Positions 7,811-35,239 of a DNA stretch of 42,016 nucleotides are shown piece after piece; position 1 is the stretch's first letter, and every line of letters starts with the position of its first letter. Under the pieces are notes generated by a model that saw only the letters and a list, made by a program, of their open reading frames with translations, was not told the origin of the DNA and did not search any database. A program made the position numbers and the translations under genes. Location: assembly GCF_001636845.1 (NCBI RefSeq), contig NZ_LITT01000018.1, positions 1-42,016 of the forward strand, read 5' to 3'. This DNA comes from Clostridium ljungdahlii (GTDB lineage Bacteria; Bacillota; Clostridia; Clostridiales; Clostridiaceae).

Positions 7811-8059
7811 AGTTTCTAGTTTGAAAGTTTACTTATATCAGCCATATACTAACAAATTTCATCACACTAAAAACTTTTTATAAGTCTAAAGCTCGGTATT
7901 TTGAAAATCTAAAGAAGCTTATATAACTCGTACCTCAAACATATATAAGCTTTTAAGATTTTCTAAAATACCTCGCTAAGACTTATAAAAAAAGTTTTTA
8001 AGTGTGATTTCCGTTTTGTTAGTATATTTTATGTATAAGTTAAAATTTCAACTAGAATC
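7811..8059 (+). repeat. long palindromic repeat, full-length copy 1
   Basis: This is an imperfect palindrome of about 249 bp. Outer ends GTTTCTAGTT and AACTAGAATC pair, as do AGTATATTTT-type and TCACACT/AGTGTGA segments further in. An inner arm TATAAGTCT pairs with AGACTTATA. At the centre is AACTCGTACCTCAAAC (7925-7940), shared with the other two full copies. No reading frame is present. The arms are diverged from the other copies while the centre is conserved. Confidence 0.85.
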
Positions 8060-8066
8060 ACTCATA

Positions 8067-8171
8067 TATAGGGTTTTTAACTAATAACTTAAATTATACA
8101 TTAATTGAAATCTACTGATTTCAATGGCTTAACTATATGAATAATTTAATTTTAAACTTATAAACCCTATA
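8067..8171. repeat. related 105-bp palindrome between two repeats
   Basis: Ends TATAGGGTTT (8067-8076) and AAACCCTATA (8162-8171) are inverted. The centre is the perfect dyad ATTGAAATC-TACT-GATTTCAAT (8104-8125). It lacks the AACTCGTACCTC core. Its end resembles the TATAGGGTTTCC end of the 150-bp copy at 25606, which suggests a distant member of the same family. Confidence 0.75.
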
Positions 8172-8174
8172 GCA

Positions 8175-8422
8175 GTTTCTAACTTAAAAATAAAACTTAT
8201 ATGCAGAAATATTTTACAATAAACAAACACATTTAAATATTTTGTATATAAGTCTTAGTAGAAAATTTTTTAAAAAACTTAGGTCTTTTGAATTGTTCGA
8301 GGTACGAGTTTTCAAAAGGCCTTAGTTTTTATAAATTTTCTTCTTAGACTTATCAAAATATTTAACCGTGTTTGTGGTTGTAAAAATATTCGGAGTATAA
8401 GTTTTATTTTTCGTTTAGAAAC
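8175..8422 (-). repeat. long palindromic repeat, full-length copy 2
   Basis: This is a 248-bp palindrome with perfect 8-base ends GTTTCTAA and TTTAGAAAC. The outer arms contain AAATAAAACTTATA and TATAAGTTTTATTT. The inner arms contain TAAGTCTTAG and CTTAGACTTA. The core AACTCGTACCTCGAAC is on the minus strand (8295-8310). It ends 15 bases past the stop of the leftward deacetylase-side gap, so it lies between convergent gatD and the deacetylase gene. Confidence 0.88.
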
Positions 8423-8437
8423 TCTCTATAATTTTAG

Positions 8438-9244
8438 TCATCTATTAATGATTCCTTTATCTGTCATTCTAAACTCTTCCTCTAAAGTTATATCATCAAA
8501 AGTTCTAAAAACAAAACCTTCTTTTTTTAAATAACTTATAATGTCTGGCAGTGCTTCTACTGTAGAAGTTTTATAGTAAGAATCATGCATCAAAACTACT
8601 GCAATTTTTTTATTCTTGCATCCATTTATTACATTTTGTTTTACAATATCTTTGGACACAAAACGTTTATCTGCATCCCCTGAGACCACGTTCCAATCTA
8701 CATACTTCATTCCGTTTCCCTTTAAAGTCTTCTTTATAATATTTAAATTGCTTACGCTTGCTGCTAAGTTATCTGACCCACCTGGAAGCCTCACAAATAC
8801 TATAGAATCTTTTCCTGTTATATTCTTTATTACATTTTTACAAACTCGAAAATCCTCTAAGTATGCATCCAAACTGCTGTACATCTCTTTATAATTATGA
8901 GAATATGTATGCACTCCTATACTCATACCGCTGTCACTTAGCTGCTTTAATATAGAAGGATTTTCTTTTGCCTTTTCACCTACTATAAAAAAAGTGGCTT
9001 TTACTCCATTTTGTTGTAATATATTTAATATCTTTGTAGTGTTATTTACAGAAGGACCATCATCAAAAGTTAAGAATACTTCTTTAGAATACGTTGGTGC
9101 ATTATCTTTAGCTAAAACAATATTCTTTCTCTCTCCCGTAAAATTATATTTTACACAATCCCATTTACATATTAAGCTTATACAAGCAATTACAAATAAA
9201 TAGATAAAAGTACCATATATGATTGAATAGACAGGTTTTTTCAT
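8438..9244 (-). CDS. membrane-anchored polysaccharide deacetylase
   Basis: This NodB-type deacetylase probably removes acetyl groups from peptidoglycan GlcNAc or another cell-surface glycan. The 268-aa protein has one N-terminal membrane segment (about residues 5-25), then the deacetylase domain. The catalytic and metal motifs are TFDDGPS, GVHTYSHN (the two metal histidines), RLPGGSDN and VVLMHDS. A GTG is in frame 9 bases upstream, but GAGGG is 8 bases before the ATG at 9244, which is chosen here. The exact substrate cannot be read from the sequence. It may share a leftward transcript with clpB, 60 bases upstream. Confidence 0.92.
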   Translation of the reverse strand: MKKPVYSIIYGTFIYLFVIACISLICKWDCVKYNFTGERKNIVLAKDNAPTYSKEVFLTFDDGPSVNNTTKILNILQQNGVKATFFIVGEKAKENPSILKQLSDSGMSIGVHTYSHNYKEMYSSLDAYLEDFRVCKNVIKNITGKDSIVFVRLPGGSDNLAASVSNLNIIKKTLKGNGMKYVDWNVVSGDADKRFVSKDIVKQNVINGCKNKKIAVVLMHDSYYKTSTVEALPDIISYLKKEGFVFRTFDDITLEEEFRMTDKGIINR

Positions 9245-9304
9245 AAAAAACACCCTCTTTTTTAATCTTCTATCATATATGGTAACCTTTATTTTAATAA
9301 ATAA

Positions 9305-11902
9305 TTATAGTTTTTCTATTTTAAACTTATCATCTTCATAATCTACTCTTACCCTGCAGCCTGTATATATATCTCCATTAATTATCTTCTTTGCAATAGA
9401 TGTTTCCAGAACGCTTTCTATATATCTTTTTAAAGGCCTTGCTCCATAAACAGGATCATAACCTTCTTGTGCCATAACTTCTTTTGCTTTTGAGGTTATT
9501 TGTATAGATATATTTTTCTCCTTAAGCCTATTTTCTATATCCCTTAGGAATATATCTATTATGAATTTAATTTCTTCCGTATTTAGGGGTTTAAACATTA
9601 TTATATCATCTAGTCTATTTAAAAATTCAGGTTTAAATTTAAATTTCATATCATTCATTACTTTGTCTCTTACATCTTTATCTATTCCATTACTACTTTT
9701 GTTCTGTAATAAATAGCTGCTTCCTATATTAGAAGTCATAATTATAATAGAATTTTTAAAATCAACTACCTTACCCTGATTGTCAGTAAGCCTTCCATCA
9801 TCTAATATTTGAAGGAATATATTAAACACATCTTCATGAGCTTTTTCTATTTCATCAAATAATATTACACTATATGGTTTTCTCCTCACTGCCTCCGTAA
9901 GCTGACCTCCCTCGTCATATCCTACATATCCTGGAGGAGCTCCTATAAGTCTTGAAACAGAATATTTTTCCATATACTCTGACATGTCTATTCTTATTAT
10001 GTTTTCTTCACTATCAAACAGTGTCCTTGCTAAAGTTTTTGCAAGTTCAGTTTTACCTACACCTGTAGGTCCTAAAAATATAAAAGAACCTATTGGCCTT
10101 TTAGGATCTTTCATACCCGCTCTTGCTCTAAGTACAGCATTTGAAACTGCTGTAACTGCTTCCTTCTGGCCTATAACTCTCTTTGCAAGTTCATCCTCTA
10201 ATTTTACTAATTTCTGTCTTTCCCCTTCTACCAATTTTGAAACAGGTATTCCAGTCCATTTAGATACTATCTGAGAAATTTCCTGTTCTGTAACTTCTTC
10301 CTTTAACATTGCAGCTTCATTGTTTTCTTTAATAGATTGCTCTTTTTCATCTATAGTACTTTCCAGTTTGGGAATAACACCATATTTTAATTCTGCAATT
10401 TTATTTAAATCATATTCCCTCTCTGCTTTTTCAATTTGTCCTCTTGCTTCATCCAACTGTTTCTTTAAATTTCTAACCTCAGTTATATTTGACTTTTCCT
10501 TTTCATATTTAGCAGTCATTTCATTATCTCTGTCTTTAAGATTACTAAGTTCCTTTTCTACTGACTTAAGCCTTTCTATAGAGGCACTATCTTTTTCTTT
10601 GGAAAGAGCCTCTTTTTCAATCTGAAGCTGAAATATTTTTCTTTTCACATTATCCATTTCAGTTGGCATACTGTCAATTTCAGTTCTTATCATAGCACAA
10701 GCTTCATCAATTAAATCTATAGCCTTATCTGGAAGATACCTATCTGTTATATATCTATCTGAAAGCTTTGCAGCAGCCACAATAGCAGAATCATGAATTC
10801 TTATGCCATGATATATTTCAAACTTTTCCTTGAGTCCCCTAAGTATAGAAATAGAATCCTGAACAGTAGGTTCATCTATAACCACCGGTTGAAATCTTCG
10901 CTCTAAAGCCTTATCTTTTTCTATATATTTTCTGTATTCATCAAAAGTAGTAGCGCCTATGCAGTGCAATTCACCTCTTGCTAGCATTGGTTTTATTAAA
11001 TTTCCAGCATCCATAGAACCTTCTGTTTTTCCAGCTCCAACTATAGTGTGAATTTCATCTATAAAAAGCACTATTTTTCCTTCGCTCTTCTGTACTTCTT
11101 TTAATACGGCCTTTAATCTTTCTTCAAATTCTCCTCTAAATTTGGCACCAGCAATTAATGCTCCCATGTCTAGGGAAAATATTATCTTATCCTTTAAGCC
11201 TTCTGGTATGTCTCCTCTTACAATCCTCTCTGCCAAGCCTTCGATTATAGCAGTTTTTCCTACTCCTGGATCACCTATTAGTACAGGATTATTTTTAGTT
11301 CTTCTTGAAAGTATTCTAACAACTCTTCTTATTTCTTCATCTCTACCTATAACCGGATCAAGTTTATGTTTTTTTGCCTCTTCCACAAGATTTCTGCCAT
11401 ACTTGGCAAGTGCCTCATAAGTTCCCTCTGGATCCTGAGTTTCAACCCTTTGATTTCCCCTTACCTGGGACAAGGCTTCTAAAAATGCATCCTTTGTAAT
11501 ATCAAATTTCTTAAGTATGCCGTCTACGTCAGAAGAGTGAACTTCCATAATACCAAGCATTACATGCTCTACACTTATATATGAATCTTTGAATTTTTCA
11601 GCTATCTTTTCTGCCTTCAAAAAAATATCTTCAAATCTTCTAGTTGCATAGACGGAGGAACTTTGTGCTCCTTCTCCCAGTACTTTAGGCATCTTGTCTA
11701 AAACATCTTTAGTTTCATTTACCAGAGATTTTAAATTTACAGACATCTTTCCAAATATATTTGGAATGAGTCCATCTTGCTCAAATACTAAAGCTGAAAA
11801 CATATGAATCACATCTACCTGTTGATGATTATATTTCACTGCTGTAAGTTGTGCTTCATTCATTGCATTTTGAACTTTTATTGTAAGTTTGTCTATGTTC
11901 AT
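9305..11902 (-). CDS. clpB: ATP-dependent disaggregase ClpB
   Basis: ClpB is a hexameric AAA+ chaperone that pulls polypeptides out of aggregates with DnaK. The 865-aa protein is full length. It has two Clp-N repeats (about 1-150), a first AAA+ domain with GDPGVGKT near residue 205, a coiled-coil middle domain (about 400-530), and a second AAA+ domain with GPTGVGKT near residue 605. The C-terminal ClpB small domain has [10 protein letters not shown]. The start fits the family, but no ribosome site lies within 15 bases of it; GGGAGGAG is about 40 bases upstream, beyond a small hairpin. I see no CIRCE or clear CtsR operator. Confidence 0.97.
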
Positions 11903-12025
11903 AATAAAAATACGTCACGCAAAACTTAAAACAAGTTTTAACGCAGCTCCTCCCTTCTAAACCTCTTTAGATTAATTTAATTCATTGGACAACAAAATAT
12001 AATTTTTTCAGTTTTCTAAGTAAAA

Positions 12026-13288
12026 CTATAAAAAATTATATTTTTGTTTTAAATCAATAGCAATATTAAAATATTTAAGGGCCTCTTGAACCTTTTTCAT
12101 ATCATAATACATACATCCTATTTCCATATATCTTTCATATATGCAAGTATTTGTTTCAAATTTCGATAGAGCATCCAGCGAAAGATTCATATACATCTCC
12201 CCTTCAGCTAACTGACCTTTTTTTATAAATACCAACGCTTTATAATAGTATGCTCTTTCTATAAGAACTATATCATTTAACTTTATAGAACAATCTAAAG
12301 CTATATCACATATACCTTCAGCTCTATCCCAAATTTGATTTTTTATCAAAATGCCTACTATTTTGATTACAAAATCAGCAAATTCCACCGCATACTCTTT
12401 AGGATACATATTCAGTGCTTCATTTATATAAAATACTGCCTTTTCACTCATATTTAAAGTAAACATAGCTTCAGCATATTCAACCATAGATATTGATTTA
12501 TCTTTTAAATTATCTTTATAAAATTCATTTGCCTTTTTTTCATATACTTTAAATTTTTCAGTATCATTTTTTAAAGAAAGTATTGCTAAAACATGATATA
12601 CTTTTGCTTTTTTTATGTCTCCATCTACCATATCTATCAATTTTGTAATCCCATCAGACAATTCATAAGCCTTTTCATAATCATTAAGAGCAATAAAGCA
12701 AGTTATTTTATTATATGTAATTTTTAATATTAGTTCATTACTACCAGTTTCTGCTGCAATGACTAACACATTATCATAATAGTTTATAGCCTGTAAAAAT
12801 TCTTTTGCTTTAAAAAAATATTTGCCAACATCCATATAATACAGGATTGCTTTTTCTTTAGAAAAATTTCTTTGTAAATATTCATAATACTTTACAATTA
12901 TACTATGCAATTTTTCTAATTCACTTTTTTCTAGATAATAGTTAAATAAGAGATGCATTATCCTAAAACATATATTATCATATCCATACCGTTCAGCAAA
13001 TTTAAAATTATATACTAAATTTTTTTCATAACTTTTCCTATCTTGTTTTTTCTCAATATCATCTATATTTTCTATTATTTGATTTTTTATATCTAATTTC
13101 AGATACTCAAAACTAACTTCAAGTTTATCTGATAAAAACTCTAAAATCCAATCTTCTGGCTTTATTTTATCATTTTCAATGCAGCTCATTTTAGAAATTG
13201 ATATTTTACTATTACACAGTTCCTTCAAAGTATATCCCTTATATATGCGTGCTCTTTTAACCTTCTCTCCAGTAGAAAGTATCTCCAT
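12026..13288 (-). CDS. XRE-family regulator with TPR domain (second of pair)
   Basis: The N-terminal ~65 residues form a helix-turn-helix related to SinR/Xre, starting MEILSTGEKVKRARIYKGYT. The remaining ~350 residues are repeated helical pairs of TPR type, including AINYYDNVLVIAAETGS and EALKYFNIAIDLKQKY. This layout is that of RRNPP-like regulators, whose TPR part can bind a peptide. AGGTG precedes the ATG at 13288; an upstream in-frame GTG overlaps that site. It follows its paralogue by 18 bases, so they are co-transcribed. Compared with the upstream copy the HTH is less typical (ISISKMSCIENDKI), so DNA binding may differ. No downstream pheromone-like small ORF is visible. Confidence 0.85.
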   Translation of the reverse strand: MEILSTGEKVKRARIYKGYTLKELCNSKISISKMSCIENDKIKPEDWILEFLSDKLEVSFEYLKLDIKNQIIENIDDIEKKQDRKSYEKNLVYNFKFAERYGYDNICFRIMHLLFNYYLEKSELEKLHSIIVKYYEYLQRNFSKEKAILYYMDVGKYFFKAKEFLQAINYYDNVLVIAAETGSNELILKITYNKITCFIALNDYEKAYELSDGITKLIDMVDGDIKKAKVYHVLAILSLKNDTEKFKVYEKKANEFYKDNLKDKSISMVEYAEAMFTLNMSEKAVFYINEALNMYPKEYAVEFADFVIKIVGILIKNQIWDRAEGICDIALDCSIKLNDIVLIERAYYYKALVFIKKGQLAEGEMYMNLSLDALSKFETNTCIYERYMEIGCMYYDMKKVQEALKYFNIAIDLKQKYNFL

Positions 13289-13306
13289 AATTATCACCTG
13301 TTCTAT

Positions 13307-14614
13307 TTAATACTCTTTTAATATTCCAATCCTTTTAAAAATTTCAACACCTTCACTCAAATACTTAGCTGCTTCCTTATCCATCTTGATGTCCTCATAG
13401 AATTTCCCAAGCTTTATTGATATATCTGCAGCTTCTCTAGTATAATGCATTTTTGTCGCAAAGTTCAATGCATCAATTAATGTATTTTCTGCTTCTTTTT
13501 TATTACATTCAATCATATTTATTCTAAATTTCATCATATAATAATATACTAGTGATTTACTATTTTTTTCGTCTATCTTGTCCCTTATTTCTTCTAGAAC
13601 TTTCCTTGAATTTATAACATCCTTTAATTTTATATAATTTTCACATATATTTATAAGTGTATCCACAATCTTTCCATCTTTACACCTCATTCTCAATTCT
13701 TTTGCCTTATTTAAATGTATAAATGATTCCTCAATATTATTAAACTCTCCAAAAAGTTTACCTAGATTGTTTTCAATTTTTGCAGTATTTATTACATCTT
13801 CTAATTTTCTATATACATTTAATGTTTTTTTAGAATACTTTATTGCATTATTTATATCTCCCTTTTTATTATACTCTTCTGCAAGCAAAAATAAGCTTTT
13901 AGCATACTCTTCCCTATCATCTATCTGCCTAAACTTCTCATTTGCCAGATAAGAATAGTTTATTGCTTCTTCCATATTTTCTAATTTAAAATTTATACAG
14001 GCTGTATAATAATATATTTGTCCAAGCAAGAAATCATTTCCTATATTATTTTCCTTATATACATTTTCTGCCTGCTGCAAATAACTTCTGGAAGCATGAT
14101 ATGATTTCATACTTATTGTAATCTTTCCTAAATTTATAAAAGTTTTTATAATTTCTTCATATTTATTATTTTTTATAAAAACAACATTAGCAGACAATAA
14201 AAGCTGTTGAGCAATAGGATATTCTTTTCTCGCCGTATAGATTGTCCCCTTTAAATATAAATTTTTTGCTTTTTCATATTGTAGGGAATACTTTTCTGAG
14301 TAGTATATAGCCTCTTCAATATATTTTTCTGATTGACTCAAACTTCCACTTATTATATAAGATTCAGCTATATTTTCAAAATAAGTACATATTTTTTGTG
14401 CTTGAGTTTCTTCTGACTCCATTAAATATTCAATGGAAGTATTCAATTCCCCTGCTAAATATTCCAACAAATCCATACTAGGATTTGACTTCCCTGATTC
14501 CACCAAACTTATTTGTCCAGGTGTAATTCTATCCCCTGCCAAATCCTTCAAAGTCATATTGAGTTCTTTTCTTCTTCTCTTTATTTTTTCTCCTAAAGAA
14601 AGTATTTCCATCAT
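13307..14614 (-). CDS. XRE-family regulator with TPR domain (first of pair)
   Basis: The 435-aa protein starts with a well-formed XRE helix-turn-helix (about residues 8-62, with ITPGQISLVESGKSNPS as recognition region). About 360 residues of TPR helices follow. AAAGGA lies 6-9 bases before two adjacent ATGs. It heads a two-gene unit with its paralogue; both share the opening MEILSxGEKxKR, indicating duplication. A 13-bp perfect dyad about 120 bases upstream is a candidate operator. Targets and any peptide ligand cannot be told from sequence. Such proteins in clostridia often control sporulation, solvent or stress functions. Confidence 0.88.
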   Translation of the reverse strand: MMEILSLGEKIKRRRKELNMTLKDLAGDRITPGQISLVESGKSNPSMDLLEYLAGELNTSIEYLMESEETQAQKICTYFENIAESYIISGSLSQSEKYIEEAIYYSEKYSLQYEKAKNLYLKGTIYTARKEYPIAQQLLLSANVVFIKNNKYEEIIKTFINLGKITISMKSYHASRSYLQQAENVYKENNIGNDFLLGQIYYYTACINFKLENMEEAINYSYLANEKFRQIDDREEYAKSLFLLAEEYNKKGDINNAIKYSKKTLNVYRKLEDVINTAKIENNLGKLFGEFNNIEESFIHLNKAKELRMRCKDGKIVDTLINICENYIKLKDVINSRKVLEEIRDKIDEKNSKSLVYYYMMKFRINMIECNKKEAENTLIDALNFATKMHYTREAADISIKLGKFYEDIKMDKEAAKYLSEGVEIFKRIGILKEY

Positions 14615-14730
14615 TCACTCTTCCTTTATTAATCACAATTTTTGTTTCATGTCTATCTGTTCCAATATGTTACATCTTTTTTAATATATAAAAAAATAAA
14701 AGCTATACTTTGGGATAACAATATCTAAAT

Positions 14731-14758
14731 ATTACATATAATTGAAATTATATGTAAT
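14731..14758. promoter_or_regulatory. candidate operator dyad
   Basis: ATTACATATAATT and AATTATATGTAAT form a perfect 13-bp inverted repeat separated by two bases, about 117 bases before the first XRE-TPR gene. There is no adjoining T-run, so a dimeric repressor site is more likely than a terminator. Apart from this and the terminator at 14905, I see nothing in the 367-base gap. Confidence 0.45.
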
Positions 14759-14904
14759 ACAAAGATCTTTGTTTAGGATAATTTTTAAACCACATTAAAA
14801 TATTATTTTATATTAGTATCATTATAACATATTTTTAATTATAAAATAAAAACTTTAAAAAATAAAAGCATATTGCCATAAACCTAAACAATATAGTCTA
14901 AATC

Positions 14905-14963
14905 AATAAAAAAACAATGTAAAATGTACATCTTTATTATTAAAAGTGTACATTTTACATTGT
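14905..14963 (-). terminator. strong intrinsic terminator
   Basis: A perfect 17-bp inverted repeat (14914-14930 and 14947-14963, arm ACAATGTAAAATGTACA) is followed on the minus strand by eight T. It lies 18 bases after the stop of the small gene 14982-15146 and ends the leftward transcript before the XRE pair. Confidence 0.9.
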
Positions 14964-14981
14964 ACTTGTTAAGCTCCTATG

Positions 14982-15146
14982 CTATCTCATCCAATTCATA
15001 ACTCCACCATACATATTTCCTGCAGTATTTCTTAAGTATCTAGAAGTTTTTCTTATCATTCTCTTTTTAGATCTATCTAATTCTGGTACTACCATCATTC
15101 CTACTGCTGCACCAATTACTGCACCTGCTACAAACTTTCCACGCAT
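14982..15146 (-). CDS. small YtxH-like basic protein, 54 aa
   Basis: This short gene encodes a 54-residue protein. A glycine/alanine-rich hydrophobic stretch (FVAGAVIGAAVGMMVVP, about residues 5-21) is followed by a basic segment (RSKKRMIRKTSRYLR). GAGGAG lies 8 bases before the ATG, and a strong terminator follows the stop, so it is very probably expressed. The opening resembles YtxH-type small membrane proteins, but the match is to a general pattern and no function is assigned. Confidence 0.75.
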   Translation of the reverse strand: MRGKFVAGAVIGAAVGMMVVPELDRSKKRMIRKTSRYLRNTAGNMYGGVMNWMR

Positions 15147-15262
15147 TTTGCTACACTCCTCTCTTTAAAAAATGCTTTTTCTTTTACAGAACTATGATTT
15201 TTTATGTTCTTTAGATAGATTATGCAAATTTATTTTTTTTAAACAGCTTAATTTTTACATTT

Positions 15263-16021: not shown

Positions 16022-16047
16022 ATCGATTTACGTGTTATATTAATCCC

Positions 16048-17004: not shown

Positions 17005-17197
17005 ATATAAATCTCCTCCCTAAATTTACAAACTTCTTATTATAAAGTATACAGTAAATTAAATTTTCTGCAATAAACAATTCTAAAATTACTATACTAG
17101 TTCCATAAATTACTTTAGCAAAATTTATGATTTTAATTAGACTAATTTATAAAAATATTATAATATCATTATATGATTTTATAAAGTTTCGTTTGTT

Positions 17198-25605: not shown

Positions 25606-25767
25606 TATAGGGTTTCCAATTTAAAATTTGAATTTATTCACAGAGATATTTTTACAATAATGAAGTACATTTAAATATTCTTTACTTAGACTTATCAAAA
25701 TATTTAACGGACTGAAGGTTGTAAAAATATCCGGAGAATAATTCAACTTTCAATCTAGGAACTCTAT
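25606..25767. repeat. palindromic repeat, internally deleted copy (about 150-160 bp)
   Basis: The ends TATAGGGTTTCC and GGAACTCTATA are inverted. The outer arms match full copy 2: ATATTTTTACAATAA pairs with TTGTAAAAATAT, and ACTTAGACTTATCAAAATATTTAAC appears near the middle. The inner ~90 bp with the AACTCGTACCTC core are absent. It lies between the S41 gene and its upstream region. Confidence 0.8.
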
Positions 25768-25978: not shown

Positions 25979-26041
25979 TAAATTACATCATGAATTATAT
26001 TAAATTTATCATTATAATTACATAATAAAAGGAGCTATAAC

Positions 26042-26164: not shown

Positions 26165-26167
26165 AAT

Positions 26168-26204
26168 AAAAATGGCTGAACCATAAAGTTCCGCCATTTT
26201 TATT
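26168..26204 (+). terminator. bidirectional intrinsic terminator
   Basis: AAAAATGGC and GCCATTTTT (26168-26176, 26193-26201) pair, with GAAC/GTTC continuing the stem, and T-rich DNA follows on both strands. It ends the 40-aa gene rightward and can end the chemotaxis receptor gene leftward. Confidence 0.85.
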
Positions 26205-26246
26205 TTGCATCTACATAATAACTATTTAATTTCTTTAGTCGAGATA

Positions 26247-27950
26247 TTAATTATTTATCCTAAATTTAGTTATATTTTTCTTAAGATTTTCTGTCATACT
26301 TTCAAGGTTTTCTGCAACCTCATATACTTTATTTGCAGACTTACTCATTTCAGTACTGGAAGCAGCTATTTCCTCAGTAGATGCGGCCATCTCTTCTGCA
26401 GTAGCTGAGGTTTCTTCTACACTACTCACTATTTTATCTTTGCTTTTTTCTAGATTGTCTACAGATACATTCACTTTTTGAATTTTAGGTATTATATTAT
26501 TAACTGCATAAGTTATATTAGTAAAAGCTTCTACAGATTCATTTATAGAGTTAGTCTGATTTACAATTTCATTGTCCATCTCTGAAGTTTCCTTTACTAT
26601 GTCTCCTATTTTATTAGAAAGCAATTTAATTAAACTATCTATGCTTGTAGAAGACTCCTTAGTCTGTGCAGCTAATTTTCTTACTTCCTCTGCTACAACT
26701 GCAAAACCTTTTCCAGCTTCTCCAGCTCTAGCTGCTTCTATAGCTGCATTTAAAGCTAGTAGGTTAGTTTGATCTGAAACACTGTTTATAATATTAGTTA
26801 TGTCATTTATTTTCAGCACATTACTACTAAATTCCGTTATATCGTCCTTAAACATTTTAAAAGAATCATTTACCTTTGTAATAGACCTTTCTATATTAGG
26901 CAGTTTCTCACTATTTTCTTTTGCCATACTGTCTATTTCATTAGAGTTCCTATCTATTTCATTTATATCCTCGACTATCTTAGACAATTCATTGCTAAAG
27001 GAATCTATAACCTCATTTACAGCAACTAATTCTTGTGCCTGATTTGTATTTGCCCCAGCCACCTGGTTTATAGTCTGGGATACATCACTTGAGGATCCAG
27101 ATAATTCTTTAGAAATCAAAGCCAAGTTATTTGATTCATCAACTATAGTTTTAAAATCATTTCTAATAGTATACAACAAATTATTCATAGATTTTCTCAT
27201 ACTTTCTATACCTTTGGCTAAAATTCCTCCTTCATCTTTATAATTCAAGTATTCTCTAGGAACTTCTTTAGTAAAATCTCCTTTTGATAAAGTGTTCATA
27301 TACCCTGCAGAATAAAGTAATACTTTAGTTATCTTAGATACAAAAATATTTGCTGCTATGACAGACAATATAGCTATTAGTACCACAATAATACCTATGC
27401 TTTTAAAAACTTCAAATATCTGATTATTTATTACACTTTTACTAATGCCTATAAAAAACATTCCCAGTACATTTCCTTCATTATCCTTGATTGGTTTATA
27501 TATTACCTCATAGGGTACATTCAATATTTTTGTTTCTCCCCTAAAGTCTTCTCCAGATTTCAACACTTTATTTGAGACCTCAGATAAAGCTTTTGTATTT
27601 ACAGCTCTATTTCCTTTGTTCATTACCGTCGTAGAAATCCTTGTATCTTTTAAGAATATAGTAACTTCTTCACCTGTCTCCGCTTTTATAGAATCTACAA
27701 ATTTAGTGTCTCCACTTATAAGTTTACTTCCCTTGTATAACTTTCCATCTTTTTCTTTCCATGCTCCACTGTATTTTTCATCTAATAACTTTAAAGCCAT
27801 ACCAGAATTTGATTTCAATTGATTGGAATAGCTTTCATCTGTTATATTACTCAAATTATGGTGTACTAATATAAGAACTGAAGCATTTAAAATCAGAATG
27901 ATACATACTATTAAAAGATTTATTTTACCCCTAACTTTTAGATTTTTCAT
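26247..27950 (-). CDS. methyl-accepting chemotaxis protein with Cache-type sensor
   Basis: This transmembrane receptor signals to CheA/CheW. The 567-aa protein has a membrane helix at about 10-30 and an extracellular single-Cache-like domain at about 35-175, with GVEVTI-like core and [23 protein letters not shown] second helix lies at about 180-205, then HAMP. The signalling coiled coil has the hairpin tip around [42 protein letters not shown] precedes the ATG. The ligand is not predictable. No other chemotaxis genes are nearby. The leader contains a hairpin terminator, listed separately. Confidence 0.95.
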
Positions 27951-28405
27951 TTACACTCCCCCTAAAAATATAAATATAATTTTATGAAAACGTTTATTTA
28001 ATTTATTTAAAAAAAGTCAGAGCACTGCTTCCGACTTTTTGTCCTGCTTTTAATTTCTTTAATCTTAAATAAATTAAAAATTTATTCATTTCCTTTATAT
28101 ACTATTATATCAAAAATTTAAATTATATTCTACATTGCAATTAAACTTATCAGTGAATCTTATTTAGTAGCTTTCACAAAGTTCATGGAAATGTTATAGT
28201 AGGTAATCATCAAACAAGATATAGCCCTATCTTACTTGCTCAAAAACACTTTTGACTATAGGACCACATAATGGCTGCCTTCCTTTTCTTTTTTTAAACT
28301 TATACTGTTTGAAAATCTAATTTGCCTGCTGCATGCAGTTACTGTAAATATAGATAAGACTATGAAAATACACCATAAAGATTTACATTTTATAAAATTA
28401 TACCT
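27951..28405. other. 455-base gap with no recognised gene
   Basis: The left 90 bases are the chemotaxis receptor leader with a terminator. A TATAAT on the minus strand (28104-28109) lacks a good -35. From about 28150 to 28310 the DNA is less A+T rich than its surroundings and has short dyads such as AAGATA/TATCTT. All frames are broken by stops. It could be a decayed gene or a structured RNA; I cannot assign it. Confidence 0.5.
28008..28040 (-). terminator. intrinsic terminator in the receptor leader
   Basis: AAAAAGTC (28011-28018) and GACTTTTT (28033-28040), with an inner GAGCA/TGCTT pairing, form a hairpin. Seven T follow on the minus strand, about 60 bases before the chemotaxis gene. It may end transcripts from the right or act as an attenuator. 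Confidence 0.7.
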
Positions 28406-28630
28406 CTAAGACAAATCCATATTATTTAATATGTTTTTTAACTCCCTCAATTCCTCTACAGTTAGGGTAACTCCCTTTCCCATTTTGTCATGTTCTTGTG
28501 ACCAATCTCTTATATCATATTTAGCAGTTCTATCATTCCAGCTAACTAAATTTAATTCTTTCTTCCATCCTTTAGGGGATTCTGATAATACTCCTTTATT
28601 CTCTTTTATTTCATATTTTATACCTGCCAT
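28406..28630 (-). CDS. YdbC/PC4-like single-stranded nucleic-acid-binding protein
   Basis: The 74-aa protein is of the PC4/p15 coactivator-like family found in Firmicutes (YdbC), which bind single-stranded DNA as dimers. The pattern is visible: strands in KYEIKENKGVLSES and WKKELNLVSWNDRTAKYDIRDW, then GKGVTLTVEELRELKNILN as the C-terminal helix. GAGAGG precedes the ATG at 28630; an in-frame start three codons earlier overlaps the ribosome site and is rejected. It is a lone gene downstream of the proA terminator. Confidence 0.85.
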   Translation of the reverse strand: MAGIKYEIKENKGVLSESPKGWKKELNLVSWNDRTAKYDIRDWSQEHDKMGKGVTLTVEELRELKNILNNMDLS

Positions 28631-28713
28631 TTTATACACCTCTCAAAATCGAAAAAATTATTTTCTATATTATACCATAATCATAAAGTATTCTCCATTT
28701 GGGAATTCCAATC

Positions 28714-28751
28714 AAAAATTAAACTTCTGAGTATACGATTCTCAGAAGTTT
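28714..28751 (-). terminator. proA terminator
   Basis: AAACTTCTGAG (28721-28731) and CTCAGAAGTTT (28741-28751) form a perfect 11-bp stem with a 9-base loop. TTTAATTTTT follows on the minus strand, starting about 22 bases past the proA stop. Confidence 0.85.
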
Positions 28752-28773
28752 GATTTAAATTCAATAAAAATCT

Positions 28774-30030
28774 CTATTTTCGTATCTGTCCTTCTCCATA
28801 GATTACGTACTTTGATGTAGTAAGTTCATTTAATCCCATAGGCCCTCTCGCATGAAGCTTCTGGGTACTTATACCTATTTCGGCACCAAATCCAAACTGC
28901 TCACCATCAGTAAATCTAGTAGAGGCATTTACATAAACTGCCGCAGCATCAACTTCATTTAAAAATCTTTGAGATGCATTATAATCATTCGTTATTATAG
29001 CTTCAGAATGTTTTGTTCCATATTTATAAATATGATCCATTGCTTCATCTAACGAATTCACTACTTTTACGGCCAATATCAAATCTAGAAATTCTGTATC
29101 ATAATCTTCTTCTTGTGCTAGTTTTGCATAGGGAATCAATTTTTTCGTTTCACTACATCCTCTTATTTCAACTCCCAAACTTTTTAAAGTTTCTCCCAAA
29201 TGAGGCAAGAACTTTTCAGCAGCATTCCTGTGTACAAGCAATGTCTCCATAGCGTTACAAACTGCTGGTCTTTGAGTTTTTGCATTTACCACTATATTCT
29301 CTGCCATATTTAAATCTGCACTTTCATCCACATAAACATGGCAATTTCCTATACCAGTTTGAATTACAGGAACTGTAGAATTCTTTACTATGGAATTAAT
29401 AAGTCCCCTGCCCCCTCTTGGTATCAGCACATCTACATATTCGTTAAGTTTCATCAAAGTTTCCACTGCTTCTCTTTCAGTTATATCTATAAATTCAATA
29501 GCCCCTTCTGGAAGTCCTGCACTAACAGCAGCTTTATTTATTATATTGTATATAGCTGCATTAGAGTTTATTGCTTCTTTTCCTCCTCTTAAAATAACTG
29601 AATTTCCACTTTTAAGACAAAGTGCAGCAGCATCTACCGTTACGTTTGGCCTAGCTTCATATATTATTCCTATTGTTCCAAGAGGTACTCTCACTTTTCC
29701 AATACGCAGTCCATTAGGCCTTTTCCACATCTTAGACACTTCTCCAATAGGATCTGGAAGTGAAGCCACCTTAACAAGTCCACCTGCCATAGAATCTATC
29801 CTCTTTTGGTTTAATTCAAGCCTGTCGATAAAAGCTTTATTTTTACCTGACTTTTTTGCATTATCAAGATCTACCTTATTAGCTTGTAAAATAAGTCCTT
29901 TATTGTTTTGAAGTGCCTCTGCCATGGCACCTAAAGCTTTATTTTTTAAATCAGGACCCATATTAGATAATATTCTTGCAGCCCTATTTGCAGTTTTAGC
30001 TTTTTCTACAACATAACTATCTATATCCAC
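28774..30030 (-). CDS. proA: gamma-glutamyl phosphate reductase
   Basis: ProA reduces glutamyl-5-phosphate with NADPH to glutamate semialdehyde, the second step of proline synthesis. The 418-aa protein is full length, with GTIGIIYEARPNVT, SGNSVILRGGKEA and the catalytic cysteine in QRPAVCNAMET. The C-terminal LHARGPMGLNELTT is also typical. The open frame runs 15 codons further and into proB, but AAGGAGG is 9 bases before the GTG at 30030, giving a gene that begins 16 bases after the proB stop. The two are one operon. Confidence 0.95.
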   Translation of the reverse strand: MDIDSYVVEKAKTANRAARILSNMGPDLKNKALGAMAEALQNNKGLILQANKVDLDNAKKSGKNKAFIDRLELNQKRIDSMAGGLVKVASLPDPIGEVSKMWKRPNGLRIGKVRVPLGTIGIIYEARPNVTVDAAALCLKSGNSVILRGGKEAINSNAAIYNIINKAAVSAGLPEGAIEFIDITEREAVETLMKLNEYVDVLIPRGGRGLINSIVKNSTVPVIQTGIGNCHVYVDESADLNMAENIVVNAKTQRPAVCNAMETLLVHRNAAEKFLPHLGETLKSLGVEIRGCSETKKLIPYAKLAQEEDYDTEFLDLILAVKVVNSLDEAMDHIYKYGTKHSEAIITNDYNASQRFLNEVDAAAVYVNASTRFTDGEQFGFGAEIGISTQKLHARGPMGLNELTTSKYVIYGEGQIRK

Positions 30031-30046
30031 CTCTATAAGCCTCCTT

Positions 30047-30847
30047 CTATTTTTCTGCTTCAAATAAAGTTCCAATTTCTTTATTTGAAACTATATCTTC
30101 TATAACAGCATCTTGGGACCCATTTGCTATTATCATAGATATCCCCGATGACACTGCTATTTTTGCAGCCTTAATTTTAGTATACATACCACCTGTTCCA
30201 ACATTACTGTGAGATCCCTTACTGCAATCTTCAATTTCCTTTGTTATTTTAGGAACACAGCTTATTAATTTAGCATCCTTATCCGATTGAGGATCAGAAC
30301 TATAAAGTCCATCAATATCTGAGAGCAGGATGAGGATATCTGCATGAATGGTCTTTGCAATCAAAGCCGAAAGCGTATCGTTATCACCAAATTTTATTTC
30401 CTCTACTGCAACTGCATCATTTTCATTAACTATGGGTATAACTCCACGTTTTAAAAGTGCTGTGAAGGTATTTTGGGCGTTAGTATAATTGTCCACTATA
30501 TCCAGATCATTTTTTGTAAGTAAAATCTGAGCAACTATTTTGCCATGTTCTGAAAATATCTTTTCATATGTATTCAAAAGTATTCCCTGCCCAATAGCCG
30601 CAGCAGCTTGCTTTTCACATATGTCTTTTGGCTTTGTTTTAAGTCCCAATTTCAAAAAGCCAACACCAATAGCTCCGGAAGTTACTAAAACTACACTTTT
30701 ACCTTGATTTTGCAAATAACAAATTTGTCTTACTATTTCCTCTATTCTATACAAATCCAAAGCTCCATCTTCGGTTATAAGAGTAGAAGTACCTACCTTA
30801 ACTACAACTTTTTTAGCATTTTTTAAATATTTTTCTCTAATGTTCAT
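30047..30847 (-). CDS. proB: glutamate 5-kinase
   Basis: ProB phosphorylates glutamate, the first and proline-inhibited step of proline synthesis. The 266-aa protein is an amino-acid kinase domain alone, with [37 protein letters not shown] and [12 protein letters not shown]. It lacks the C-terminal PUA domain of the E. coli enzyme, as in many Firmicutes. GGGGAG precedes the ATG. It is followed by proA and preceded by lepB at 60 bases. No T-box or attenuator is evident in that gap. Confidence 0.95.
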
Positions 30848-30907
30848 TTTTTACTCCCCACAATAATTTAACTTTTACATACTCAACCTTTGCACATATT
30901 ATGAATT

Positions 30908-31438
30908 TTAAAACGCTTTAATATTATTAAAAGGGTATACTCTCAAAATAACGTGTCCTCTTATATCTTTCAAGCTTATTGGTCCAAGTATTCTGCTGTC
31001 AGTACTGTTTCCCCTATTGTCTCCAAGTACAAAAACATATCCTTTAGGGATTACATATTGTGTAATAAGAGAATTAGGTTCAGTAATAGTTCCTTTAGGA
31101 AGATAATCTTCTGAAAGAAGCTGTCCATTTAAATATACATTTCCATCTTTTATTTCAACTTTATCTCCAGCTATTCCTATAACTCTTTTTATATAATCAT
31201 CATTATTTTCGTCTTTAGAATAAAAAGTAACAATTTCTCCTCTACTTATATGACCGGTTTCAGTACTTACTTTTTCCAAGAATACAGAATCCTTATCATG
31301 AAATGTAGGCTGCATAGAAGGTCCTATCACAGTTGTTCTTGCAAAAACATAGGTCCTAAATGTCAATGCAAACACAACTGCCAATGTAATATAAAATATA
31401 TATCCGCCTATATTCTTTAAAACTCCCTTATGTTCCAT
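30908..31438 (-). CDS. lepB: signal peptidase I
   Basis: This membrane protease removes signal peptides from exported proteins. The 176-aa protein has one N-terminal membrane helix (about 11-30) and box B GPSMQPTF with the serine nucleophile near residue 40. Box D DYIKRVIGIAGD has the general-base lysine near residue 82, and box E GDNRGNSTDSR is present. GGAGAG precedes the ATG. The role of proBA downstream is unrelated, so co-transcription would be fortuitous. Confidence 0.95.
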   Translation of the reverse strand: MEHKGVLKNIGGYIFYITLAVVFALTFRTYVFARTTVIGPSMQPTFHDKDSVFLEKVSTETGHISRGEIVTFYSKDENNDDYIKRVIGIAGDKVEIKDGNVYLNGQLLSEDYLPKGTITEPNSLITQYVIPKGYVFVLGDNRGNSTDSRILGPISLKDIRGHVILRVYPFNNIKAF

Positions 31439-31594
31439 TTATCATACTCTCCTTCAATATCACAAAAATTATAATTAACATTTATTATAGCATAATATAA
31501 ATTAACATACAGTTAACTTTATATAATATCCATTTAATTTCGAAAATATATACTAAGACTGTCAAATGGAAAATTAAGTTAGGGGGAAAATATT

Positions 31595-33259
31595 ATGAAA
31601 AAAAAATACTTATCAATGGTAATAGCTGCACTTATTGCTGCCACATCAACAATAGCTCCAATATACTCAGTTCATGCGGCTTACGATAGTACAACTATTA
31701 ATACTAATTTAAATTCTACTGTAAAACCTGATCACGTTACTTTAACCTGGACTAAGGACCCTAAAACTACACAGACAATCACCTGGAGAACTAGTACAAA
31801 TGTAACTAAAGGATTAGTTCAATATAAAAATTTGGCTACCGGAGAAACAAAAACCTTCAATGCTGCTAAACAAGATTTTTCCACATCAAGCACTGATATA
31901 AACACTGGATATATGAATTTATTTTCAGCTACCTTAGAAAATCTTACTCCAGGAACTAAGTATAGTTATATGGTAGGAGATGGCCAAAACTGGAGCACTG
32001 AAAATACATTTAAGACAGAATCAAACAAAGAAGATGACGTTAAATTTATTGTTTTTGGGGATTCTCAAAGTGGAAATGCAAATGTTCCAAATTATGCTCC
32101 TTGGAATAAGACAGTTCAAAACGCCTATTCTAAAAATAAAGATGCAGATTTCATGATAAATATGGGAGATTTAGTTGAAAAGGGCCAAGATTATAGACAT
32201 TGGAATAACTGGTTTGATGCTGCTAAAGGAGTTATTGACAATTTACCTGAAATGCCAGTTCAAGGCAATCACGAAACCTACAATGCAGTTGGCTGGGATT
32301 CAACTAAACCTAAATATTTTACAAATCAATTTAAAGTTCCGATGAACGGTCCCGATGGTTTCAAAGGGCAAGTATATTCTTACGATTATGGAAATGTTCA
32401 TTTCGTTATGTTAGACAGCCAAGAGGAAGAGGAATCTCCAAATAATGATGAATTTTTAAAAAAACAAGCGGTATGGCTTGATTCAGACTTGACTTCAAAT
32501 AAAAAGCCTTGGACAATAGTATCCTTCCATAAGACCCCATACTACAATAAAGCTTCAAGAGCAAATGTAACTTTAAAAAATATAATATCACCTGTATTAG
32601 AAAAACACCACGTAGATGTGGTTCTAAATGGACATGATCATGCAATGTCGAGAACTTTTCCTATTAATAATGGAAAATACTATACCGATTATTCTAAAGG
32701 AACTGTATATTATGTAACTGGCAGAAGTGGAGCTAAGTATTATGGAGATTTATCATCTAAAATTTGGGATGCATTCTTCTTTGATCCACAAGACATGCCT
32801 TGCTATGAAGTAGCAGATGTCAAAGGAAATGTACTTACGATAAATGCTTATAAACAAGATGGTACCTTAGTAGATTCCTTTGTACTAGACAAAGATCATC
32901 CTCAAAACAGCACAAAAGTAGTTCTTCCAACTGCATACAATGTAGATATGAATAATAAAGAACTAGCAGCCATAGGTGCTGATCCAAGATTAATTATATA
33001 TGGAACACCAATTGCATTTGGAAGTAATCAAGCTGAAATCATAAAGGGTAAAGCTTATGTTAATCCAAGTTATATAGCTATGTACTTAGGTGGAAGCTAT
33101 GATTCAGCTTCAATGAAATTGACTATAGATAAGCAAACTTATAGTTTTAATGCTAAAAACCTTTCTCCTAGTAAAAATGTGAGCTTAGATGCTTTAACTA
33201 AGGCGGGTTTTAATTGCAGCTATAATACCCAATTTAACATGATTATGATAGATAAGTAG
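31595..33259 (+). CDS. secreted purple-acid-phosphatase-like metallophosphoesterase
   Basis: The 554-aa exported protein has a signal peptide (about 1-28, cut near SVHAA). An N-terminal fibronectin-III-like domain (about 45-150, DHVTLTWTKDP...TPGTKYSYMVGDG) precedes the metallophosphoesterase (about 155-420). Its metal motifs are FGDSQSG, MGDLVEKG, QGNHET, VSFHKTP and NGHDHAMSR. The C-terminal ~90 residues resemble a copper-amine-oxidase-N-like stalk domain. The purple acid phosphatase GDxxY tyrosine is replaced (GDLVE), so the metal pair may differ. GGGGG precedes the ATG. Phosphate scavenging from organic phosphates is the likely role; the true substrate is unknown. Confidence 0.9.
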   Translation: MKKKYLSMVIAALIAATSTIAPIYSVHAAYDSTTINTNLNSTVKPDHVTLTWTKDPKTTQTITWRTSTNVTKGLVQYKNLATGETKTFNAAKQDFSTSSTDINTGYMNLFSATLENLTPGTKYSYMVGDGQNWSTENTFKTESNKEDDVKFIVFGDSQSGNANVPNYAPWNKTVQNAYSKNKDADFMINMGDLVEKGQDYRHWNNWFDAAKGVIDNLPEMPVQGNHETYNAVGWDSTKPKYFTNQFKVPMNGPDGFKGQVYSYDYGNVHFVMLDSQEEEESPNNDEFLKKQAVWLDSDLTSNKKPWTIVSFHKTPYYNKASRANVTLKNIISPVLEKHHVDVVLNGHDHAMSRTFPINNGKYYTDYSKGTVYYVTGRSGAKYYGDLSSKIWDAFFFDPQDMPCYEVADVKGNVLTINAYKQDGTLVDSFVLDKDHPQNSTKVVLPTAYNVDMNNKELAAIGADPRLIIYGTPIAFGSNQAEIIKGKAYVNPSYIAMYLGGSYDSASMKLTIDKQTYSFNAKNLSPSKNVSLDALTKAGFNCSYNTQFNMIMIDK

Positions 33260-33328
33260 AATTTCTAACTAAAAAATAAACTTATGCGTAAGAATATTCG
33301 GAGCATAAGTTTATTTTTCGTTTAGAAT
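33260..33328. repeat. palindromic repeat, minimal copy (69 bp)
   Basis: The outer ends of the repeat family are joined directly: ATTTCTAAC, AAAAAATAAACTTATGC, a short loop with AGAATATTCGGA, then GCATAAGTTTATTTTTCG and TTTAGAAT. It begins at the base after the phosphatase stop codon and ends 16 bases before the stop of the convergent adaptor gene. It is a strong hairpin with T-rich flanks on both strands, so it probably terminates both. Confidence 0.85.
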
Positions 33329-33344
33329 TCCATAGAAACTTTTT

Positions 33345-34016
33345 CTATTTTATGCGAATCTTGACATTTGCATTAGTTCCTAAAACCAATCCCTTAGCCT
33401 TATTGAACTGAATTTTAACTGGTACTTTTTGGTTTACTTTTTCAAACTTACCATCTTTATCTTTAGAAGATTGATTTAAACCATTTTGTGATACTAATCC
33501 AATGGATTTTACTTTTCCATTAAACTTTTTACCATTAAATTCATCCAACTTAACGGTAACAGCTTGACCAACTTTTATATTTTGAATTTCTTTTTCATCT
33601 ATATTTGCAGTTACATAAACATTATCTTCATCTGCTAAAGTAGCTATAGTTTGACCAGCTAATTTAAATTCTCCCTGAGTACTCTGCTTTTTCACAACTA
33701 TACCACTTATAGGAGCTCTCACTAAAGATGAATCTATACTTGAATCCGGGGTATTCGTAACTTCCTGTCTGGCCAATATCTCATCTTTATTAACTTCATC
33801 GCCCTCATTTAAATCAAACTCTAGTAATTTACCTTGAATTTGAGTATTTACATTAACTAAATCTGCACCCACTACTGCATCATTTGTTGAAATATAATAA
33901 GTGTTTTCATACCAAAAATAAGATATTATACCGCACAATATTACTGCAATTCCTACTAATATTCCAATAGCTGCTATTTTATATTTCTTAATCATACTAA
34001 CTATTTTATTAACCAT
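33345..34016 (-). CDS. HlyD/EmrA-type membrane fusion protein without coiled-coil hairpin
   Basis: This is a periplasmic-adaptor-type protein that in Gram-positives links to an MFS or ABC exporter outside the membrane. The 223-aa protein has an N-terminal membrane helix (about 13-35), a lipoyl-like domain (NTQIQGKLLEFDLNEGDEVNKDEILA) and its second half (VRAPISGIVVKKQSTQGEF). A beta-barrel region then ends in PVKIQFNKAKGLVLGTNANVKIRIK. The usual helical hairpin is cut down to about 12 residues. GGGGGG precedes the ATG. It is 19 bases after a second adaptor gene. No exporter pump follows. Confidence 0.9.
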   Translation of the reverse strand: MVNKIVSMIKKYKIAAIGILVGIAVILCGIISYFWYENTYYISTNDAVVGADLVNVNTQIQGKLLEFDLNEGDEVNKDEILARQEVTNTPDSSIDSSLVRAPISGIVVKKQSTQGEFKLAGQTIATLADEDNVYVTANIDEKEIQNIKVGQAVTVKLDEFNGKKFNGKVKSIGLVSQNGLNQSSKDKDGKFEKVNQKVPVKIQFNKAKGLVLGTNANVKIRIK

Positions 34017-34035
34017 GCTGTATCCCCCCTTTTCA

Positions 34036-34830
34036 CTACTCTAATCCGATTTCCGCAAACATACCTGGTTTCAAAGATGGATTTTTACCATTTATACTAA
34101 CCTGTACTAAAATATCTGAACTTTGCGGCTCTACCTTAGAATTTATGACAGTTACTTTTCCTTGGAAATCCTGATTTGGAAGGTCAGGTACCCTAATAAT
34201 TACATTTTGGCCAACGTTAATCTTATTTAAAATGTAAGATGGTGCATATGCATTTACATATAACTTATCAGAATTAACTATTGAGATAAGCGGTTTACCT
34301 GGATAAGCCATATCTCCAACATTTACATTTTTAGCACTAACTGTTCCTGCAATAGGTGATGTAACAGTAGCATTGTTAAGCGAGTTTTGAGCAGCTTTTA
34401 ATGCAGCCTGTGCCTGATTTACCTGACTTTGATAAGTACTTATATTGGACGATGCAGAACTACCTGTTAGGCTTGTACTATTATACGTACTACTTTGTGC
34501 ACTAGTTAAATTTGAATTTGCAGCATTTAATGCATTTTGTGCTTGATCAACTTGATTCTGAAGATCTTGGGTATCCAATTTTATAATAACTTGTCCATCT
34601 GTTACTTTTGTCCCTATATCTACAGATACTTCTGAAACCCTTGCCGAAATGTTTGAAGTTATCTGAGTATCTTCATTTGTTGTAATCTTTCCTCCCATTA
34701 TGAACGAACCCTTGTCATTCTGTTCATTAGAATTTGTAATTGTCTTTGTAGGAGCTGAATTTTTATTATAACTACAGCCACCTAAAAACACCCCCATAAC
34801 TACTAAACAAACTAAAATAATTTTTTTCAT
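34036..34830 (-). CDS. HlyD-family lipoprotein adaptor
   Basis: The 264-aa protein has a lipoprotein signal (VVMGVFLGGC, lipidated cysteine near residue 19). The lipoyl halves ARVSEVSVDIGTKVTDGQVI and VTSPIAGTVSAKNVNVGDMA enclose a short alpha-helical hairpin (about 85-145, rich in A, Q, N and S). A beta-barrel domain follows. Two ATGs are in frame; AGGAGG at proper distance favours the one at 34830. It is the first of two adaptor genes in an apparently pump-less operon. Partners could be encoded elsewhere. Confidence 0.9.
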   Translation of the reverse strand: MKKIILVCLVVMGVFLGGCSYNKNSAPTKTITNSNEQNDKGSFIMGGKITTNEDTQITSNISARVSEVSVDIGTKVTDGQVIIKLDTQDLQNQVDQAQNALNAANSNLTSAQSSTYNSTSLTGSSASSNISTYQSQVNQAQAALKAAQNSLNNATVTSPIAGTVSAKNVNVGDMAYPGKPLISIVNSDKLYVNAYAPSYILNKINVGQNVIIRVPDLPNQDFQGKVTVINSKVEPQSSDILVQVSINGKNPSLKPGMFAEIGLE

Positions 34831-34992
34831 TTCCATCCTCCTCTTATGTAGGCACTGTAAAATAACTTTTTAACATTTTTATTATAAGCTTAATGTTGTT
34901 TAAAATAAAGAACTTTAGTCTAAAACTTCAAAATAAATTAAGTAAGCATTTCATCCAATATCCAACAAATCTTCAACTTCATTTATACGAAG

Positions 34993-35239
34993 GTTTCTAA
35001 TCAAAAAATAAACTTATACTCCGAATGTTTTCTACAACATTCAGCTCGTTAAATATTTTGATAAATCTAAGTAAAAAATTCTAAAAAAACTAAGAACTTT
35101 TAAAAACTCGTACCTCAAACAATTCAAAAATTCTAAGTTTTTACGAATTTTTTTCTAAGACTTATATACAAAATATTTAAAAGAGCTTCATTATTGTAAA
35201 AACATATCTGCGTATAAGTTGATTTTTAAGTTAGAATAC
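34993..35239 (+). repeat. long palindromic repeat, full-length copy 3
   Basis: This is a 247-bp palindrome with ends GTTTCTAAT and TTAGAATAC. The outer arms pair ATAAACTTATACTCCGAA with CGTATAAGTTGAT. The inner arms pair AAATCTAAGTA with CTAAGACTTATA. The core AACTCGTACCTCAAAC is at 35105-35120. It occupies the divergent gap between the adaptor and macro-domain genes. The rest of that 554-base gap holds an imperfect dyad near 34872-34895 and no gene. Confidence 0.87.

Follow-up and report, generated by a model that had tools for sequence, protein, structure and literature searches.

A 42,016-nucleotide stretch of Clostridium ljungdahlii DNA (contig NZ_LITT01000018.1, positions 1 to 42,016; hereafter the window) holds members of a family of long nested palindromes that are, we believe with somewhat more confidence than doubt, non-autonomous, non-coding mobile DNA hairpins, moved by a putative recombinase and aimed at the 3' ends of genes. 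Its members combine as inverted composites of two palindromic subfamilies, they lie directly behind stop codons, they have been inverted or exchanged in place between species, their arms have kept pairing over long times, and their hairpins carry a conserved tip module. An initial reading of the sequence (the first-pass annotation) had proposed a structured repeat spread through the genome and bearing no transposase; this description holds, and is refined here to a paired inverted composite that occurs in four genera and is tied to stop codons.

The first-pass annotation recognized three palindromes with a shared apical core, at 7811-8059, 8175-8422 and 34993-35239, in both orientations. All three are present at these positions, the first and third in forward and the second, judged by its core, in reverse orientation, and all three have the core, which in the copy at 8175-8422 is a G variant. 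The count of three stands, but the first two are the subfamily I and subfamily II halves of a single composite, and the inventory was short: the window additionally holds a small palindrome (~8067-8171), a copy with its tip deleted (~25606-25764) and a mini-copy (33263-33327). Three species were compared, namely the window's genome, a second carrier of the genus (G006) and Clostridium ragsdalei, to which the window's genome is closely related. Their 201 full copies comprise 71 of subfamily I, 129 of subfamily II and one chimera; the two consensus sequences are 68% identical, and their longest identical runs are AAACTCGTACCTCAAACA in the loop, ATATAGAGTTTCTAAA at the end, CTAAGACTTATA and ATAAGTCTAA. 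Neighboring full copies (less than 250 nt apart) are almost always one I and one II, with the core in plus orientation in the first and minus in the second (37 of 39 pairs), and both I/II orders occur (8 and 7 pairs in the window's genome, 6 and 5 in G006, 9 and 2 in C. ragsdalei). The composite is bounded by 16-bp terminal inverted repeats, ATATAGAGTTTCTAAA. At orthologous loci, pairs have become solo copies by deletion (L045/L086, L063/L077, L074/L097), and hairpins shortened by loss of the tip are frequent; solo and mini copies thus look like decay products of the composite.

The expectation that further copies would be found in the genome was borne out, with the core at 84 sites (at most one mismatch; reversed control, 0), an 18-nt loop pattern at 91 sites, and the terminal repeat at 106 sites (at most one mismatch) versus 19 for its control. 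Sequence extracted around 67 places, together with the window, yielded 106 elements, whole or fragmentary, of which 86 are near full length; only three of these 86 overlap open reading frames (ORFs) of at least 70 aa. A search by exact core detects the family in 3 of 13 genomes of the genus, and blastn at 1e-5 agrees. Loci of G006 and C. ragsdalei were selected by exact core, and a scan of public sequences, from which the window's own or very near genomes were possibly left out, drew all of its 35 stretches from C. ragsdalei P11. No description of the hairpin family was found in the literature searched, and the core as a string occurred in 0 papers.

The position of the copies relative to genes is far from even. 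With gene positions from a simple ORF caller, and counting clusters that hold a full copy, the 71 clusters of the window's genome divide into 40 tandem, 29 convergent and 2 divergent settings. Among the tandem sites, 39 of 40 are closer to the upstream stop than to the downstream start, 36 lie within 40 nt of it, and the median distance is 5.5 nt; 29 of 31 tandem sites in G006 and 14 of 14 in C. ragsdalei are likewise closer to the stop, counts that are not independent among the three species because these share loci. Convergent composites lie at most 25 nt from both stops in 7 of 8 cases in the window's genome, 6 of 6 in G006 and 2 of 4 in C. ragsdalei. Solo copies are mostly in sense to the gene that they hug (window's genome: convergent 16/19, tandem 22/26, binomial p 0.0005; G006: 12/15 and 23/23; C. 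ragsdalei: 7/8 and 5/6).

These counts bear on a simpler explanation, an ordinary miniature inverted-repeat transposable element (MITE) that derives from a conventional DDE insertion sequence, has a TA-type target, and after random scattering persists mainly where it does no harm. Terminal inverted repeats well above control, many intergenic copies without a long ORF and the avoidance of divergent regions (2/71) would all follow from such an origin, but random retention fails on a median of 5.5 nt from the stop, and neither the fixed inverted pairing of I with II nor the deep upkeep of the whole hairpin is explained by it; no parent was found either. We consider a conventional MITE unlikely. 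The first-pass annotation had offered this label among others. The repeat is dispersed, has terminal inverted repeats and contains no transposase (no ORF of at least 100 aa is listed over 7811-8422 or 34993-35239); the label itself is not confirmable, since no parent element, target duplication or clean empty site was found.

Inversion or exchange in place was examined in all 16 orthologous full-composite comparisons plus that of the window with L111, 17 comparisons at 13 loci. The composite is inverted in eight of these (6 of 13 loci), with identities of 0.57-0.66 in direct and 0.80-0.95 in inverted alignment between measured flanks of 0.85-0.99 identity, while the remaining nine are collinear, with direct identities of 0.94-0.99. 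The window composite is itself inverted relative to C. ragsdalei (0.650 direct, 0.864 inverted; one flank was too short to measure), and blastn alone aligns L013:1647-2204 with L088 at 93% in an orientation opposite to that of the flanks. The point at which subfamily I switches to II lies inside the terminal repeat, and at several loci, among them the window and the left side of L046, locus-specific outer repeat variants remain with the flank. As in invertible elements, both orientations are thus found at one site with junctions in inverted repeats, here between species. Misassembly seems an unlikely source of the inversions because the 16-bp repeat is shorter than a read, although the three assemblies include drafts.

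To separate inversion from replacement, each copy was matched to the complete set from the other species and its ortholog was ranked. Where the composites are collinear (nine comparisons), 17 of 18 copies have their ortholog as best match, and the remaining copy was absent from the set; in the eight inverted comparisons this held for 5 of 16. Among the inverted loci, L013 and L030 have the appearance of true inversions (ranks 1-4, 92-97%), L031 and L046 look like replacement by another copy (ranks 13-37, 81-84%), and the window and L151/L086 have a mixed ranking pattern; the notion that every inverted case is a simple inversion was accordingly dropped. Over 102 unambiguous orthologous positions (8 of 110 were ambiguous and were set aside), 50 hold a copy of the same subfamily that is also the best match, 9 the same subfamily without best match, and 43 the other subfamily.

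The family reaches beyond the genus into three further genera that belong to one taxonomic family with it. The 18-nt loop, with at most one mismatch, was found in 9 of 225 genomes of the order, representing four genera (reversed control, 4 single hits). Site counts are 91, 74 (G006) and 86 for the three carriers of the window's genus, 13 and 121 for those of genus g10, 2 and 6 for g15, and 8 and 8 for g17. Copy number differs strongly within g10, where G112 has the 121 sites, G108 the 13, and the other five genomes none. All 20 readable copies from other genera fold as a full-length hairpin (-80 to -128 kcal/mol), and four adjacent pairs (L203, L217, L218, L224) are again arranged as plus then minus. 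Arm identity across genera drops to 0.40. The other-genus copies not selected by their own loop retain the module flanks and differ at the tip, with TAC replaced by CAGG and CAAAG (L204), CAAG (L218) or a longer variant (L217); the conserved apical module reads AAACTCG-N3-5-CTCARACA. An earlier view of the loop as invariant was weakened by these changed tips, and by the choice of loci by exact core.

Pairing of the arms was evaluated in an alignment of 23 copies, the 20 from other genera and the three of the window. In this alignment 83.7% of cells pair (69.9 when shuffled, 34-49 when slid), 66 of 90 pairs have changed on both sides versus 40.8 shuffled, and doubly changed cells number 258 versus 84.0 shuffled and at most 105 slid, with 0 of 500 shuffles as high; the unslid version is favored in this comparison because the structure was derived from the same sequences. 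This deep covariation shows that the folded form has been maintained over long times. The window copies also fold strongly as RNA, at -90.3 (7811-8059), -86.2 (8175-8422) and -59.7 kcal/mol (34993-35239), with z-scores of -15.8, -14.8 and -9.7 (for each copy, none of 200 shuffles folded as well), and the opposite strand of the copy at 8175-8422 folds as well (-92.8 kcal/mol, z -14.0). The first-pass claim that the arms had drifted while pairing was kept is upheld across genera; it fails for resident copies over the time since the species diverged.

In the reading that we favor, the mobile unit consists of two imperfect palindromes of ~250 bp, I and II, inverted relative to each other and enclosed by the 16-bp inverted repeats. 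Each palindrome would extrude as a hairpin displaying the apical module, and a putative recombinase may read the hairpin, the terminal repeat or both, and place the unit directly 3' of stop codons. Recombination at the terminal repeat could then invert a resident composite or swap it for another copy at the same site, and residents would subsequently decay by loss of one partner or of the hairpin tip, leaving solo copies and minis.

Several observations weigh against this reading. At L030/L115 the repeat variant moves with the segment, and at L046/L152 the right junction is not conserved. The low ranking of orthologs in three of the eight inverted comparisons (L031 twice, L046) points to replacement rather than simple inversion. 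Solo copies rarely flip, with one locus pair (L051/L156) in 86 single-to-single rows, counted from both sides. One of the 39 neighboring pairs is minus-minus (L146); the other pair outside the 37 has an unclassified member. A clean empty site was found at none of seven inspected 'missing' sites, every one of which retains an element end or arm, and insertion and target duplication were consequently not seen. Loop invariance in the other-genus copies arises by construction, as these copies were chosen by their loop. Neither a recombinase nor a parent element emerged from the ORF layout of 20 regions among the 106 terminal-repeat sites, and the single long stretch enclosed by a pair of terminal repeats (L186) contains DHFR and DUF2207 genes. 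Finally, among 53 orthologous pairs of resident copies, 350 single changes between paired and unpaired states stand against 11 compensated pairs; such undefended pairing would be expected if the constraint acts on the moving lineage while residents decay.

The same changes bear on the idea that mutation alone, through copying of one arm onto its partner by template switching, maintains both palindrome and covariation without selection on the hairpin, and that inversion merely follows from the presence of long inverted repeats. Between orthologs, double changes are more numerous than expected under independence (24 vs 9.1), hairpin-tip deletions are common, and G-U pairs are no more frequent than A-C mismatches, all as this idea would have it. 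However, with only 11 doubles from one Watson-Crick pair to another versus 350 single breaks, the process is too slow to keep a palindrome, and the inversion junctions lie in a short repeat and solo palindromes scarcely flip. We regard mutation alone as improbable.

The frequencies of G-U and A-C also bear on which molecule is folded. The ratio of G-U to A-C cells is 74:105 in the 23-copy alignment (p 0.025, from cells that are not independent), 188:226 and 341:400 within the three species, and 124:130 among ortholog changes. A selected sense RNA should favor G-U, and since G-U is not commoner than A-C, a DNA hairpin rather than a sense RNA is indicated; the pairing data even lean slightly to the other strand. 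The suggestion of a structured RNA made in the first-pass annotation was thus not supported for the sense strand, and no Rfam 15 family matched the element at gathering score.

A role in the 3' untranslated region (UTR) nevertheless deserves consideration, with the element acting as a terminator, exonuclease block or RNase III site, selected gene by gene, whose loop is bound by protein or RNA. The copies hug stops and lie in sense to the adjoining gene, a sense ORF of 80 codons or more ends 2-24 nt upstream of 13 of the 20 copies from other genera, and the partner retained after decay of a composite is the gene-proximal one. The loop differs from consensus at 4.0% of positions, the stems at 8.7% and other unpaired positions at 20.6% among 43 copies whose selection did not depend on their own core, although this test left out 5 of 48 core-unselected copies, two of them with three core mismatches. 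Of 51 control convergent genes, 13 are followed by a canonical terminator with dG of -7 or lower (0/51 shuffled). Such a terminator is present beyond the far end of the element on only 2 of 78 sides, but also inside it on only 11 of 78, by a scan that leaves hairpins longer than 42 nt unscored and that replaced a stricter one in which only 11 of 144 controls were found. Genes next to the element are therefore mostly without a canonical terminator elsewhere, and the element does not supply one of canonical type either; no terminator-like site (G+C stem followed by a T run) is present in 7600-8600. The proposal of a transcription-ending module in the first-pass annotation hence fits the position of the element but not its scarcity of canonical terminators, and a role at transcript ends is possible. 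As an explanation of the family, the 3'-UTR RNA module has some merit but is doubtful given the ratio of G-U to A-C, the absence of an Rfam match and the free breakage of stems since speciation.

Which enzyme might move the hairpins was approached through domain matches. REPINs, paired REP sequences of Pseudomonas and other bacteria, consist of two inverted hairpin-forming halves with solo remnants, intergenic location and reported compensatory changes (PMC3116915). That logic, with two inverted hairpins as the unit and solos as decay products, is closely mirrored by the inverted pairs of palindromic halves found here (37/39). That a Y1 (RAYT/TnpA-REP) transposase moves the present family as a REPIN-like element is very improbable, however, because Y1_Tnp (PF01797), present in 10 of 13 genomes of the genus, has no match in G006, a carrier with 74 loop sites. 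The palindromes also differ in length, ~250 bp compared with the 20-40 bp given for REPs (PMC3733652), and in being of two different subfamilies behind stop codons (the GTAG or CGTC tag was not searched for); inversion or exchange between species is seen here, whereas the word 'inversion' is absent from PMC3116915. An IS110/Piv (DEDD) enzyme was rejected on similar grounds, PF01548 being unmatched in five of the nine carriers (G008, G125, G126, G131, G132). Separately, the genome G108 by itself contains 26 IS110 DEDD domain matches. Tyrosine recombinases (PF00589, 13 of 13 genus genomes) and serine recombinases (PF00239, 16 of 16 tested) remain candidates, and because they are present in all genomes tested neither is singled out. 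A viral origin was likewise discarded: four IMG/VR contigs with the exact 16-base core match the family model over the loop only (E 0.007-0.14), which marks these matches as chance, and plasmid and phage records gave no match at 1e-5.

Integron attC sites, imperfect palindromes located 3' of stop codons, recombine in the form of single-stranded hairpins. The present elements share with them the imperfect palindrome 3' of a stop codon, but are dispersed singly over the chromosome with no cassette arrays, and have a conserved apical loop and longer arms. Bacterial MITEs and ERIC/RU-type repeats are similarly short, without transposase, with inverted ends and many intergenic copies (PMC10969869, PMC2759123); the paired composite, the tie to stop codons, the conserved apical module and the failure to find a parent set the present family apart. 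Invertons such as the Cdi switches of Clostridioides difficile also use short inverted repeats (10-20 nt class) and occur in either orientation at one site, but they are described mostly in intergenic or 5' regions with one or few loci each (PMC5903667), in contrast to the dozens of dispersed copies at gene 3' ends, some at sites where another copy has replaced the resident. The composite resembles REPINs in its paired halves and invertons in its short inverted repeats, but one carrier, G006, lacks the Y1 enzyme that defines the former.

If the favored reading is correct, these mobile hairpins would form a family with a nested palindrome as its unit, addressed to the spot right behind stop codons, with in-place turnover in sister species of industrial gas-fermenting clostridia and carriers in three further genera. 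It would offer a natural test of how long DNA hairpins are mobilized or inverted when not all carriers possess a Y1 or DEDD enzyme, and would likewise show if a change of a gene 3' end by mobile DNA alters expression; comparison of carriers with non-carriers is possible because carriage is patchy (9/225 genomes, 2 to 121 loop sites). A bolder version, which we hold to be speculative and unlikely, is a dispersed, re-usable docking system in which the recombinase would read a hairpin whose module is fixed (AAACTCG ... CTCARACA) except for a tip of 3-5 nt that varies, inserting, flipping and exchanging hairpin pairs behind stops and so reshuffling dozens of gene 3' ends between lineages.

Within the window, the composite spans 627 bp (7805-8431) and consists of a forward subfamily I palindrome, the small palindrome and an inverted subfamily II palindrome between terminal repeats. 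It sits between the convergent stop codons of 7059-7793 (+), a CobB/CobQ-like amidotransferase gene adjoining a MurT-like gene, and 8438-9253 (-), a polysaccharide deacetylase gene. Its left terminal repeat (7805-7818, +) is the locus variant ATGTAGAGTTTCTA, and its right terminal repeat (8416-8431, -) is a locus variant with CTCTCTATA; both are common to the C. ragsdalei locus, in the left case despite a differing interior. The subfamily I palindrome (7811-8059, +, ~249 bp) has its apical loop, AACTCGTACCTCAAACA, at 7925-7941 (+; core 7926-7940), the small palindrome between the main hairpins (8067-8171) ends in TATAGGGTTT/AAACCCTATA, and the subfamily II palindrome (8175-8422, -, ~248 bp) has the G-variant core of its apical loop at 8295-8310 (-; core match 8295-8309). 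The solo copy at 34993-35239 (+) is of subfamily II, with the core of its apical loop at 35105-35120 (+; core match 35106-35120), and lies between divergent genes at 34836 (-) and 35385 (+), an unusual setting for the family. The tip-deleted copy (~25606-25764) has lost the core and retains a terminal repeat at 25606-25619, and the 65-bp mini (33263-33327) is a hairpin base only, four bases 3' of the stop at 33259.

Some other loci have related but distinct structures. A 283-bp segment between convergent genes (L181:2826-3108) has the same terminal repeats around a different interior without a family-model match, and at L188:2900-3010 one family end is adjoined by a long, almost perfect hairpin whose loop is different, possibly another palindromic repeat. 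At L022:1916-2289 a copy is interrupted near its tip by ~130 bp with strong inverted repeats, where G006 has a subfamily II mini. In the window, the adjoining ORFs 33345-34016 and 34036-34836 (-) both match HlyD membrane-fusion domains and may be two genes or one split gene; a thiamine pyrophosphate (TPP) riboswitch is located at 2232-2338 (-), and the start of a 16S rRNA gene at 1-210 (-).

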